Shown piece by piece: positions 42,767 through 46,689 of a DNA stretch of 64,000 nt. Numbering within the stretch: the stretch's first letter is position 1; each line of letters begins with the position of its first letter. Source of the stretch: Nocardioides thalensis (GTDB taxonomy: Bacteria > Actinomycetota > Actinomycetes > Propionibacteriales > Nocardioidaceae); contig NZ_JACCFP010000001.1 in the NCBI RefSeq assembly GCF_013410655.1, positions 2,317,501-2,381,500 of the forward strand, in the 5' to 3' direction. The notes under the pieces were generated by a model, which saw only the letters and a list, made by a program, of their open reading frames with translations, was not told where the DNA came from and made no database searches. Made by a program: the position numbers and the translations under genes.

Positions 42767-43342
42767 CTATCGACCGACCAGTTCGAGGAAGAGACGGTGC
42801 ACCCGTCCGTCCCCGTCGACCTCGGGATGGAACGACGTGGCCAGCAGGTGTCCCTGCCGTACGGCGACCGGGTGCCCTTCGGCCGAGGCGAGCACCTCGA
42901 CGCCGGGCCCGACCTCCTCGACCCACGGCGCCCGGATGAAGACGGCATGCACCGGGTCGTCGAGGCCGGTGAACGGGAGGTCCGCCTCGAACGAGTCGAC
43001 CTGGCGCCCGAACGCGTTGCGCCGCACGGTGACGTCGAGCCCGCCGATGGTCTCCTGGCCCTCGATCCCGTCGCGGATCCGGTCGGCGAGCAGGATCATC
43101 CCGGCGCACGTGCCGAACGTCGGCATCCCGTCCTTGACCCGCTGCCGCAGCGGGTCGAGCAGGTCGAAGGTGCGCGCCAGCTTGGCCATGGTCGTGGACT
43201 CGCCGCCCGGCAGCACCAGCCCGTCGCAGCGCTCGAGCTCGCTCGGTCGGCGGACGGTGAACGCGTCGGCACCGAGCGCGCTGAGCGTCGCGACGTGCTC
43301 GCGGACGTCGCCCTGCAAGGCGAAGACTCCGATGGCTGGCAC
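42767..43342 (-). CDS. pdxT: Pyridoxal 5'-phosphate synthase glutaminase subunit
   Basis: 191 residues from the GTG at 43342. Class I glutaminase that feeds ammonia to Pdx[25 protein letters not shown], the nucleophile [10 protein letters not shown] (Cys ~80) and the catalytic SFHPEVDGD are all present. In related genomes pdxS lies next to or near pdxT; here the partner is 5 kb away beyond an inserted cassette. Confidence 0.96.
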
Positions 43343-43379: not shown

Positions 43380-44339
43380 TCAGGCCCACCCGCATCGCAT
43401 CGCGGCGCCGATGATGAGGATGCTGGCGCGGCGAATGGGAGTCGATGTCGTGGTCGCTGCGACCCACGACGTCGTGGCCGTCAATCGGGCCCTGATGATG
43501 ACGGTGTAGTTGGCGTTGATGCCGACCAGACCGGTGCCGATGTCCAGGGTCACGGTCGCTCCTGTCGCGGTGCCGTTGCCCACTACGCCGCTGGCGACTG
43601 CCGCTCCCCCGGTCGTCTGCACCTCCCAGACGTATTCGTATCGACTATCGACCTGGGTCCAAGTGAGTCGTGCGATGTTTCCGAGGATGAGCACACCGTC
43701 GACGTTCTGACACTGGGGCTGGGCTTGGGAGGCGACGGTGTGCGCAGCTAGGGCGCCACCGGTCGCCGCCGAGGTGTCGGTGAACGCGGCGGCGGTGCCG
43801 GTCGTCGCCGCAACCGTCACGGCGGCCGCCGCGCCGGCAGCAGCCAGGCCCGTCGCCCTCCGCTTCCCGCCCGCGGGCCGCCGGCGGAAGATCACGACGA
43901 GCATCGCGAGGACGAAGCCGCCCATCAGGCACATCCCCAGCGGCGTGCCGATCCAGGAGACGACGTATCCCGCCACCGGCACCGACCAGAAGACCCGGTC
44001 CGTCTCGCCGACCGGGTAGGTCTCGACGTCGGGCGCGGCGTTCGCGTCGCCCTGCAGGGTGAGGACCCGGACCTCCCCCTCGCCGGCGATGCCGACGATG
44101 CGGTGCGTCACTCGCGTGCCGTCGCTCGTGACCACGCTGACGACATCGCCCACGGCGAGGTCGTCAGCGGCGACCGGGCGGGAGAGGCCCAGGGCGCCGG
44201 CCGGGATCTCGGGGCCCATCGAGCCGGACCGGAAGACCAGCGGCTTCACCCCGGCGACCAGCCCCGCGAGGGCGAGCAGGAGGCAGAGCGAGCCGACGAT
44301 CGCGCCGATCGTCAGCAGCCCGCTCCGCACCCGGGTCAC
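43380..44339 (-). CDS. ER-type signal peptidase I fused to a SipW-type signal and FnIII-like domain
   Basis: 319 residues from the GTG at 44339, overlapping the previous gene by 4 bases. Residues 1-130: S26B signal peptidase with an N-terminal helix (8-30), Ser40 in RSGSMGPEI, His79 in VTHRIVGI and Asp98 in LQGDAN, the Ser/His form seen in SipW and Sec11. Residues 133-151: second helix, then a basic turn (RRRPAGGKRR). Residues 163-188: third hydrophobic segment ending GTAAAFTD, like the signal motif of the two neighbouring substrates. Residues ~210-303: a beta-rich FnIII-like domain (ARLTWTQVDSRYEYVWEVQT ... YTVIIRARLTATTSWVA). The fusion is one intact frame; function inferred. Confidence 0.75.
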   Translation of the reverse strand: MTRVRSGLLTIGAIVGSLCLLLALAGLVAGVKPLVFRSGSMGPEIPAGALGLSRPVAADDLAVGDVVSVVTSDGTRVTHRIVGIAGEGEVRVLTLQGDANAAPDVETYPVGETDRVFWSVPVAGYVVSWIGTPLGMCLMGGFVLAMLVVIFRRRPAGGKRRATGLAAAGAAAAVTVAATTGTAAAFTDTSAATGGALAAHTVASQAQPQCQNVDGVLILGNIARLTWTQVDSRYEYVWEVQTTGGAAVASGVVGNGTATGATVTLDIGTGLVGINANYTVIIRARLTATTSWVAATTTSTPIRRASILIIGAAMRCGWA

Positions 44340-44986
44340 GACGTCACCTGGGTCGCCGAGAGGTCGAAGCGGAGCTGGCCCTGCCTGCCCTGGTTGGCGT
44401 TGTCGGCGGTCGAGACCATCGACACCAGGACGCAGAGCTGGGCGTCCGTCGCGCCGGCGTCGACGCGTCGCGCGGCGCTGGTCACGATGGTGCTCCCGGC
44501 GGTGACGGTCACCGGCGACGCCGTCAGGGCCGTGCCTCCACAGGTCTGCTGGACGGGATAGGTCGTGTCGACGGTCACCGGGCTGCCGGCATACAGCTGC
44601 ACCTGGATGGGGGTGCCGACGAACGTCCAGGCGGGCGATCCGCCCTGCGTGACGGTGGCGGTGTAGGTGAAGTCGGCCTGGCCGACGTTCCTGACCGCGA
44701 GCGGGAAGGCGTAGGCCTCCGACGGCGTCAGGTTGGGCACCGTGACGTGGGAGGCGGAGAACGCCGTACCCGTGCCCACGGCGCCCCACGGACCGGCCGT
44801 GGTCTGCGCGACCTGGAGGTCCATGGCGCCGGACGTGACGGGGCCGGTGCTGACCGCCGCGGTGTCGGTCCAGTACGCCGTCGTGCCCGCGACGCCCAGC
44901 GCCAGCACGACCCCGAGGGACAAGACGGCCCGGGTCCGACCGCTGCCGAACCACACGCGCCGCCGCGGCGCGGCGTGCCTAGCCAT
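44336..44986 (-). CDS. SipW-dependent-type secreted protein 2
   Basis: 216 residues from the ATG at 44986 (MARHAAPRRRVWFGSGRTRA). A basic N-terminus, a hydrophobic segment and the motif GTTAYWTD at residues 34-41, as in TasA/camelysin-type signal peptides that SipW-like enzymes cut. The mature part (~175 residues) is Thr/Val-rich, beta-type, with one cysteine in QQTCGGTA and one in AQLCVLVSM that may pair. Probably a surface or fibre-forming protein; the exact role is unknown. It overlaps its neighbours by 8 and 4 bases. Confidence 0.75.
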   Translation of the reverse strand: MARHAAPRRRVWFGSGRTRAVLSLGVVLALGVAGTTAYWTDTAAVSTGPVTSGAMDLQVAQTTAGPWGAVGTGTAFSASHVTVPNLTPSEAYAFPLAVRNVGQADFTYTATVTQGGSPAWTFVGTPIQVQLYAGSPVTVDTTYPVQQTCGGTALTASPVTVTAGSTIVTSAARRVDAGATDAQLCVLVSMVSTADNANQGRQGQLRFDLSATQVTS

Positions 44987-45608
44987 CGGCCCGCTCCTGT
45001 CGTCTCCGGCCAGCCACGAGCGCGACGCCGCTGCCCAGCAGCGCCGCGCCGAGGAGGACGAGCCACCGGCTGACGCCGCTGCCGGCATCCGGCAGGTGTC
45101 CGCCGGGGTCGGTGCCGCGCTGGGCAAGGGTGACGACGAGGTCGAGCGGCAGCAGATCGGTCATCGACTGATTCGTCGACTCCCACAGGAAGTCGACCCG
45201 CACGTCGACCCGGGCCACCTCCCCTCGCTCGACGTCGCGCCGAACCAACGGGCTGAGGTCGGCGCCGTTGCGCAGCGGGATCCATTCCCCCCGTGACACC
45301 CGCGCCGCGATCTCGATGTCGTCGTCGGGGAGCAGGTCCGCCGGGTCGCGCGTCGTGACGGCGACCGTCATCGTCGCGTCGGTCGGTCCGTCGTCGCGAA
45401 CGTAGAACTTCTCGACCTCACTGTCGCCCGGCACCCAGCGAAAGCCCCGGTCGAACAACGGTTGCCGGAGGTCGTTGCGCCAGTGTCGGCCGTCGGAGCT
45501 CAGCGCGAGATCGTCCGCGTGCGCCGACGGCACGTCCGCGGCCGCGAGGGCAAGCGCCGCCGACAGTGCGAGGGGGAGCATCCGAGCCTGCGTCCACGGG
45601 GATGTCAT
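44979..45608 (-). CDS. Secreted protein with LPDAG wall-sorting-like C-terminus
   Basis: 209 residues. Standard signal peptide (about 1-31, ending PSAHA), a beta-rich extracellular region, then LPDAG at 172-176, a hydrophobic helix (about 181-199) and a basic end (GRRRQERADG). This is the layout of a sortase substrate; LPxAG/LAxTG-like sites are used by class E sortases of actinobacteria. No sortase gene is in the window. If it is not sorted it would simply be a type I membrane protein. It shares one base with the upstream peptidase gene. Confidence 0.7.
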   Translation of the reverse strand: MTSPWTQARMLPLALSAALALAAADVPSAHADDLALSSDGRHWRNDLRQPLFDRGFRWVPGDSEVEKFYVRDDGPTDATMTVAVTTRDPADLLPDDDIEIAARVSRGEWIPLRNGADLSPLVRRDVERGEVARVDVRVDFLWESTNQSMTDLLPLDLVVTLAQRGTDPGGHLPDAGSGVSRWLVLLGAALLGSGVALVAGRRRQERADG

Positions 45609-46150
45609 CAGGCCGGCTCCCCCCGGAGGCGGCGCCCGCGGAGCGCGCCGGTGAACATGTAGGCGGCGTAGCCGAGGAGACCACCGGCAGCCAGGTAGAC
45701 GGTCGTTCGGCGCTGTCGACCGGTGAGCAGCTGGTTGACACGCCCCACGTGGGGAACGGCGTACCAGAGCCTGCCTCTGACCTGCACCGCTCGCACCGGA
45801 TCCGGATCGACCGCGTCGTTGGCGTCACCTTGCGTCGTGAAGGTGACCTCTCCGGTGAGGCTGGTCGACACCGTCACCACGCGGTGCGTGACGACCGTCG
45901 AGCTGCCCGACTCCCGCTGGTAGGTGATCACGTCGCCGCTCCGGACGTCCTCGGGAGCGACCGGCCTCACCACCACGAGGGTGCCGGGCGGATAGTCGGG
46001 TCGCATCGAGCCGGTGAGCACGCTGTAGGGAGTCCCGCCCGCAACTCGTGGGACCAGCACTGCGACCGTCACCGCAGCGACCACCCCGAGGATCAGCGAC
46101 CAGGCCACGACCTGGCCGACCCACCGCAGGGCGGGTCGCCCGCCCGCCAT
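45608..46150 (-). CDS. ER-type signal peptidase I (SipW-like)
   Basis: 180 residues. N-terminal helix (about 12-34), then Ser48 in LTGSMRPDYPPG, His89 in VVTHRVVTV and Asp109 in TQGDAND, forming the Ser/His/Asp set of S26B enzymes, in place of the Ser/Lys dyad of the usual LepB. A second helix (about 150-168) and a basic tail RGRRLRGEPA close the protein. It follows the first SipW-type substrate gene by 8 bases. Its likely substrates are the proteins with GTxA-type motifs in this cassette. Confidence 0.88.
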   Translation of the reverse strand: MAGGRPALRWVGQVVAWSLILGVVAAVTVAVLVPRVAGGTPYSVLTGSMRPDYPPGTLVVVRPVAPEDVRSGDVITYQRESGSSTVVTHRVVTVSTSLTGEVTFTTQGDANDAVDPDPVRAVQVRGRLWYAVPHVGRVNQLLTGRQRRTTVYLAAGGLLGYAAYMFTGALRGRRLRGEPA

Positions 46151-46158
46151 CGGATGGC

Positions 46159-46689
46159 CTAGGGGTGCGGGTCGGCCTGGACAGCGGTGACGACGAGGCC
46201 GTTGAGCGCACTCGTCGAGACGCCCTGGGACTCGTTGTCCGCGGACGCTCCGTACGGCCAGTCGACCGTGATCGTGAGGGAGACCGCTCCCGACGTCGTG
46301 ACGGTACCGCCTCCGGTGAGGTCCGCGGTGATGTCGACGGCGTCGACGTTGACGGCATCAGGGGCCGCATCGTTGAAGGCCGCCTCGGCCGTGGCCACCG
46401 ACGAGTCGTCGAGCGCCACCGTCGCCGCGATGTGGTCACCGGTCATGGTGATCGTCCCGGTGCACGCCTTGGTGACCGTGTCACCTGGGACGAGCAGCTG
46501 GACGTCGGTGTCCGCGCCCTCGGTCCAGGTGTCGGCGCAATCGAGGTCGGACAGCGTCAGCGTGCCGGCCGCGATCGTGCCACCGTCGACGGTCCCATCG
46601 TCGCTCCAGAACGCGACGGTGCCGGCGCCACCGAGGAGCAGCACCGCGGCGCCGCTCGCGGCCAGTGCGCCCTTGGTCGTTCTTCTCAT
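46159..46689 (-). CDS. SipW-dependent-type secreted protein 1 (alternate-type signal peptide)
   Basis: 176 residues from the ATG at 46689, with GGGGAGG upstream. Signal peptide MRRTTKGALAASGAAVLLLG followed by the motif GTVAFWSD at residues 23-30, which matches the alternate-type signal peptide of SipW-processed proteins. The mature part is acidic, Thr-rich and beta-type, with two cysteines (DLDCADTW, TKACTGT). First gene of the cassette; its promoter must lie in the 126 bases shared with the divergent lipoprotein gene. An upstream-extended frame to 46785 would disrupt the signal peptide. Confidence 0.78.
   Translation of the reverse strand: MRRTTKGALAASGAAVLLLGGAGTVAFWSDDGTVDGGTIAAGTLTLSDLDCADTWTEGADTDVQLLVPGDTVTKACTGTITMTGDHIAATVALDDSSVATAEAAFNDAAPDAVNVDAVDITADLTGGGTVTTSGAVSLTITVDWPYGASADNESQGVSTSALNGLVVTAVQADPHP

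Follow-up and report, generated by a model that had tools for sequence, protein, structure and literature searches.

A signal peptidase fused to a SipW-type substrate in Nocardioides thalensis and other actinobacteria: a candidate for self-processing

The window, by which is meant the whole 64,000-nucleotide stretch of Nocardioides thalensis DNA that was analyzed, includes five adjoining minus-strand genes that make up a SipW-type system. The first specifies an exported protein of the TIGR04089 kind and is followed by genes for a stand-alone SipW, an LPXTG-anchored protein, a secreted protein of the TIGR04088 kind and, in fifth and final place, a fusion protein in which a signal peptidase is continued by a SipW-type signal and cleavage site and by a further domain (Table 1). 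A preliminary description of this DNA, made from its letters, had proposed an intact frame of 319 codons without giving its strand; the frame lies on the minus strand, is free of stops from its GTG at 44339, and its start overlaps the stop codon of the preceding gene (44336...). The motifs GTVAFWSD and GTTAYWTD, which the same description had picked out in two neighboring secreted proteins, are present in the products of the first and fourth genes, and these proteins score above the cut-offs of TIGR04089 and TIGR04088. The WVPGD motif of the anchored protein recurs in a loose form at 35 of the 66 longer fusion loci. The next gene on the minus strand after the fusion (42767-43342) is presumably PdxT-like, a name taken from its sequence.

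Table 1. Genes of the SipW-type row and parts of the fusion protein, in window coordinates
Feature	Position	Strand	Basis and remarks
SipW-type exported protein (GTVAFWSD)	46159..46689	-	TIGR04089, 124.6 bits against a cut-off of 60; start chosen at MRRTTKG
Stand-alone SipW-type signal peptidase	45608..46150	-	TIGR02228, 85.6 bits
Surface protein with LPXTG-type C-terminal anchor and WVPGD motif	44979..45608	-	TIGR01167 above cut-off; sequence
SipW-type secreted protein (GTTAYWTD)	44336..44986	-	TIGR04088 above cut-off; start chosen at MARHAAP
Fusion gene: ER-type signal peptidase, SipW-type signal/cleavage site and FnIII-fold domain	43380..44339	-	319 aa, GTG start
First TM helix, residues 3-29, predicted N-in	44253..44333	-	AlphaFold2 model
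S26B catalytic domain, residues 30-131, with S40, H79 and D98	43947..44252	-	TIGR02228; invariant residues; signal peptidase fold
Second TM helix, residues 133-151	43887..43943	-	AlphaFold2 model
Basic turn RRRPAGGKRR, residues 152-161, predicted cytoplasmic, like a signal-peptide n-region	43857..43886	-	Sequence; charge pattern in 103 of 108 fusions
Third hydrophobic segment, residues 162-179, like a signal-peptide h-region	43803..43856	-	Sequence and model (helix 164-179)
GTAAAFTD, residues 181-188, predicted cut after Ala184	43776..43799	-	P1 Ala 31/31, aromatic P2' 31/31, P4' Asp 29/31; motif count
FnIII-fold domain, residues 209-316, with conserved Cys210 and Cys316	43392..43715	-	Alignment, model, structure comparison

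The N-terminal part of the fusion protein is an ER-type signal peptidase, as had been proposed from its Ser40, His79 and Asp98. TIGR02228 matches residues 10-131 with an E value of 2.2e-15 and 56.9 bits, above the curated cut-off of 51.85; the family for SipW of Bacillus, NF046067, gives 47.9 bits against a cut-off of 190, so that the fusion protein is a relative of that family and not a member. An AlphaFold2 model built from 31 sequences (mean pLDDT 80.3, pTM 0.49) consists of a helix at 3-29, a beta catalytic domain, helices at 133-151 and 164-179, and strands from 209 to 316. The model and the sequence together bear out the second helix, basic turn, third hydrophobic segment and GTAAAFTD of the preliminary description, with the site itself in a stretch (179-197) of pLDDT below 50, which gives it no confident place. 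The model of a second Nocardioides fusion (L071) has a like layout, with a mean pLDDT of 75.1 and values below 50 at 175-202. In structure comparison of the predicted model, residues 1-134 match 7p2q chain A of the human signal peptidase complex paralog C (Z 10.2, rmsd 5.5), a chain that we take to be Sec11.

The C-terminal part had been called FnIII-like, which holds for its fold but not for its assignment by sequence profile. For this part of the predicted model VIA-align places a fibronectin fragment first (Z 10.3, rmsd 2.3, 88 residues aligned). Foldseek itself ranks glucuronidases and cytokine receptors highest, at E values around 1e-3 and low TM-scores, and lists an FnIII module at rank 29. 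Pfam fn3 (PF00041) has no match in the fusion protein of the window at E up to 1, and it matches 2 of 31 fusions at E up to 0.01. The TasA/camelysin family PF12389, searched up to E 1, does not match the window protein either. TIGR04088 matches 34 of 107 junction segments of fusions at E up to 1, the segment of the window not being among those matched at that threshold, and is absent from the 25 families listed for 31 full-length fusions.

The fusion is widespread. In the family to which the window belongs, 192 of 294 genomes match the fusion protein at E 1e-3 or better; such a match can be to the peptidase part alone, and many of the listed places span most of its length. From these 192 genomes, 30 places came as loci and 20 were added, and a collection with one genome per species contributed 80 loci, kept from 96 relatives. 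The genera represented among these 80 include Nocardioides, Aeromicrobium, Rhodococcus, Gordonia, Williamsia, Arthrobacter, Frigoribacterium, Curtobacterium and Phytoactinopolyspora, along with others. The 134 loci yielded 232 unique peptidase frames, of which 113 were called fusions; with the exclusion of 5 that scored 140 or less, and with three ambiguous frames (L111, L127 and a SipW of L068) also set aside, there are 108 distinct full-frame fusions of the window's subfamily from many actinobacterial genera, a set chosen by likeness to the gene of the window and not a random sample. The search for homologs with the same domain order, suggested with the original proposal, thus found many, and the possibility that the fusion is a frame artefact or a local oddity is ruled out by these 108 intact relatives. 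Ser40, His79 and Asp98 are invariant in alignments of 19, 31 and 40 fusions and in all 108. The alignment of 31, termed A3, consists of the window protein plus 30 fusions from the species-collection loci, where 32 fusions are no longer than 420 residues (L067 and L128 were left out), and has a mean column identity of 33%. A larger alignment, A5, holds 107 of the 108 (L067 was left out), with the segment of the window shifted by one codon.

Beyond the family, the profile matches 58 of 198 genomes searched across the phylum. In six of these the match is free of stops and extends past profile position 200, namely in the genome of the window and in G383, G485, G466, G368 and G517. All five of the foreign fusions have the third hydrophobic segment and a further domain. 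The motif A.[FWY].D is found in three of them (L234, L235 and L237); the corresponding sequences of the other two are AAFFSG (L236) and GAALTA (L238).

It is extremely unlikely that the fusion is a relic, that is, a dead end or frame artefact with a functionless joint. Broken or trimmed cases do exist, at L127 and L186, but the many intact proteins all keep their catalytic residues, and the codon differences between the window gene and its relatives at L006, L007, L008 and L009 are commonest at position 3 in the catalytic part, the joint and the FnIII part alike. On a tree of 238 peptidase domains, 121 of them fused, the fused label requires only 8 changes as against 79.9 in shuffles, and at least two changes are forced by well-supported branches; this was a quick tree that carried a long-branch warning and left out peptidases scoring below 45, domains shorter than 110 residues, ambiguous ones and four duplicates. 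The fusion design is thus clustered and mostly inherited, rather than a matter of chance in a single genome.

The L127 case comes from the complete genome of Frondihabitans sucicola, where the peptidase half and the signal/FnIII-like half lie in different frames. Conserved read-through from a peptidase into a substrate was also considered: the examined cases with stops inside (including L028, L029, L031, L038, L041 and L044) are stand-alone peptidases followed by no in-frame SipW-type protein. In two more distant actinobacteria (L241 of G348 and L245 of G335), a SipW-type substrate follows the stop of the peptidase in the same frame. This arrangement is likely a forerunner of the fusion and suggests how one could arise, but it is no sign of read-through.

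The part that follows the peptidase also occurs on its own. Unfused copies are found as separate secreted proteins in four genomes (G106, G138, G013 and G261). In G106 and G138 the copy begins at a start codon of its own, has a basic n-region (that of G106 reads MRRRWKLATAG...) and is 36-38% identical to the module of the window. Its gene row also includes a stand-alone SipW and a SipW-type substrate; no fused peptidase was found in the stretch examined around either copy. The copies in G013 and G261 are more distant and have putative starts. At P2', the unfused modules have Trp in G106, G138 and G261 and Tyr in G013. A profile of the module matches 37 of the 294 family genomes at E 1e-8. Judged by its sequence, the module is a genuine secretory protein.

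The joined domain varies. LamG-like domains replace FnIII in the window genome and in Microbacteriaceae, and other domains do so in further actinobacterial families; the names LamG and LPXTG for these variants are our own assignments from sequence. The LamG-like case of the window genome is a second peptidase fusion (L003, at G000:C1:690410-691003 and onward), and its site, AVATFTG, resembles the ASYAAFTG of the frame before it. Pairs of a SipW-type peptidase and a substrate are also carried on a Curtobacterium plasmid (L246) and a Pseudarthrobacter plasmid (L247), and the peptidase of the latter, annotated just as "signal peptidase I", is joined to a domain with an LPXTG-like end. Another kind of S26B protein in Microbacteriaceae (L172, L175, L176, L181 and L185) has a C-terminal part with a TM-like end, and no SipW-type site was seen in it.

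The junction itself is conserved. In A3, which was aligned without reference to the motif, Ala184, the expected P1 residue, is the sole invariant column outside the catalytic domain, and Asp188, Cys210 and Cys316 are conserved at 90% or more. The P3 column has Thr, Ala, Ser or Gly in 27 of the 31 fusions, and P2' is Phe in 17, Trp in 12 and Tyr in 2. Over the 42 residues from the third segment on, A.[FWY].D occurs in 84 of the 108 fusions, as against a mean of 1.75 and a maximum of 6 in 500 shuffles, and in only 4 of 379 control windows placed downstream of this region in each fusion. When all 108 fusions are called, P2' is Phe in 42, Trp in 40, Leu in 17, Tyr in 6, Gly in 2 and Gln in 1, and P4' is Asp in 98, with the limit that the caller demands Ala and favors an aromatic P2', a small P3 and Asp at P4'; the A3 counts are independent of the caller. 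Asp at P4' is lost in four Rhodococcus fusions (L114, L117, L118 and L125). The window site has T182 at P3, A184 at P1 and F186 at P2' and follows a charged n-region and a hydrophobic h-region, as is characteristic of a SipW-type site. The small residues at P3 and P1 fit the -3,-1 rule. By these sequence comparisons, the fused site is conserved in the manner of a cleavage site.

The protease and the site had been proposed to face the outside together, and the predicted topology agrees. The net charge before the third segment exceeds that after the site in 103 of the 108 fusions (means +3.33 and -0.88), and therefore the basic turn is predicted to lie inside and the site outside. Taken together, these features suggest that the fusion is probably a SipW-like ER-type peptidase that bears a complete SipW-type substrate, and that its catalytic domain frees the FnIII-fold domain by a cut after Ala184, made either within one chain or between sister chains. 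Insertion with helix 1 N-in, as charge and model indicate, would put the catalytic domain and the site outside, where the catalytic domain could cut the same chain or a sister copy. The released secreted domain would have 135 residues and start AFTDTSAAT, and the enzyme would remain in the membrane with three TM helices and could cut other SipW-type substrates as well. The released domain would join the secreted and surface proteins of the row, probably in a TasA-like extracellular structure.

Conservation around the junction could have another source. The fusion could be uncut or rarely cut, such that the FnIII-fold domain stays tethered to the membrane and the segment after helix 3 serves as a donor strand at the base of a TasA-like fiber. 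In the TasA fiber, according to the available text of PMC9674648, the donor strand consists of residues 28-38 and includes F29, and TapA may give the first one. If mature TasA starts at residue 28, F29 is its P2' residue, and a donor strand would also conserve P2' and P4', so these two positions may be kept for fiber assembly. A donor strand leaves P1 and P3 unexplained, however: the invariant Ala at P1 and the small residue at P3 precede it and fit a peptidase. The FnIII-like fold is also unlike the jelly roll of TasA, as that available text describes it (PMC9674648). A tethered, uncut domain is accordingly rated as improbable.

If the site is cut, it could instead be cut in trans by the stand-alone SipW of the row, with the fused protease serving other substrates. 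A stand-alone SipW is indeed present at 61 of the 66 longer fusion loci, and the unfused modules of G106 and G138 sit beside one where no fused peptidase was seen in the stretch examined. SipW cuts TasA, whose P2' residue is Phe, but E. coli LepB does so poorly; this poor cutting is due in part to the aromatic P2' and in part to other residues close to the cut (PMC10269814). Among stand-alone substrates in the present collection, P2' is Trp in 155 of 163, compared with 40 of 108 fused sites (Fisher p 2e-26, uncorrected for kinship); the stand-alone count is pattern-based, taking same-strand hits with set residues only, and some of these may be spurious. When only loci with a stand-alone SipW in view are counted, 127 of 131 separate substrates carry Trp at P2' and not one carries Phe or Tyr, irrespective of the residue at the fused site. 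The contrast in Trp between stand-alone and fused sites recurs in Aeromicrobium, Arthrobacter, Gordonia, Nocardioides, Rhodococcus and Williamsia.

Where a substrate is present and no stand-alone SipW lies beside the fusion, the substrate and the fused site share their P2' class at six of seven loci, equivalent to four of five lineages. The matching loci are those of three Frigoribacterium genomes (F/F), Phytoactinopolyspora (F/F), Curtobacterium (W/W) and the second fusion of the window genome (AVATFTG / ASYAAFTG). In two of these Frigoribacterium genomes, substrates that sit beside a separate SipW have Trp (GSYALWSS and GTFAVWNS; L168 and L182). The exception is Frondihabitans (L127), with a W substrate and an F site, in which the two halves are in different frames. 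Because the flanks seen at L001-L034 are each about 1.5 kb long and several other loci stop at a contig end, the absence of a SipW from such loci is uninformative. One locus with short flanks, outside the count of seven (L011 of G088), has an F-type substrate, TTLAVFTD, between two F-type fusions.

Some genomes appear to manage with the fusion alone. In Phytoactinopolyspora alkaliphila (L123, G296), the fusion is the sole TIGR02228 match of the genome at E 0.01, and, apart from one match at E 5.2, a search with the stand-alone SipW recovers nothing but the fusion (E 2.9e-11). Read by eye, the row in this organism runs from a substrate (VTLAQFTD) through the fusion to a protein whose end is LPXTG-like. 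Barring a second enzyme in an assembly gap, both sites have the fused domain as their candidate peptidase. In Curtobacterium Leaf261 (G298), all five TIGR02228 matches are in proteins of 285 residues or more, as are the four examined of five matches in Frigoribacterium PhB116 (G295), where the fifth is weak; neither set includes a short stand-alone peptidase. Some of these long proteins belong to another S26B kind, which might also be able to cut. A relative of P. alkaliphila, G322 (L186), has a fusion without helix 3 and the site, yet retains an F-type substrate, so the joint can be lost. Among 22 searched genomes of the family of P. alkaliphila, only G296 and G322 have matches above the cut-off.

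The P2' contrast, the matching of P2' classes and the lone fusion of P. alkaliphila make it likelier that the fused domain does the cutting, whether in cis or between sister copies, and render trans cutting by the stand-alone SipW rather unlikely. The self-processing reading first put forward for the fusion is in this way partly supported, to the extent that comparison of genes can speak to it. It is quite conceivable, at a little under even chances, that the fusions form an actinobacteria-wide class of self-releasing signal peptidases, each translated with its own substrate and each with a P2' preference that matches its built-in site and is unlike that of the neighboring, Trp-preferring SipW. 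Members of such a class would replace SipW in some genomes, and their joined domain would be exchangeable (FnIII, LamG-like or others), providing a general means of export and release in a fixed ratio with the protease.

The fusion has parts in common with several known systems. Like SipW of Bacillus (TIGR02228 / NF046067), it has a catalytic domain of the Ser-His kind with a TM helix on each side and is encoded in a row with SipW-type exported proteins. SipW stops after its second TM helix, whereas the fusion goes on to a basic turn and third helix, then to a cleavage site and finally to the FnIII-fold domain. With TasA, TapA and the SipW-dependent proteins of TIGR04088 and TIGR04089 it shares a basic n-region, an h-region and the pattern small-x-Ala|x-aromatic-x-Asp, but those are all separate polypeptides, while the signal part of the fusion is internal, after the peptidase, and its mature domain is FnIII-like. 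The fold of residues 1-134 is shared with Sec11 of the human signal peptidase complex, which to our knowledge has no fused substrate. Self-cleavage has been reported for P-type signal peptidases, where the cut harms the enzyme; cutting of the fusion, by contrast, would liberate a dedicated secreted domain. A fused or self-processing SipW-type peptidase was not found in the open-licence literature, as searched by title or the start of the abstract.

If the proposed processing occurs, a single polypeptide with both peptidase and substrate would offer a simple test of cis cutting by ER-type enzymes and of what determines P2' preference. It would also mean that two neighboring enzymes with seemingly different site preferences are encoded in one gene row. 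Finally, it would suggest that actinobacteria have a large set of TasA-like surface systems, possibly hidden by the names given to their genes, as with the Pseudarthrobacter plasmid fusion.
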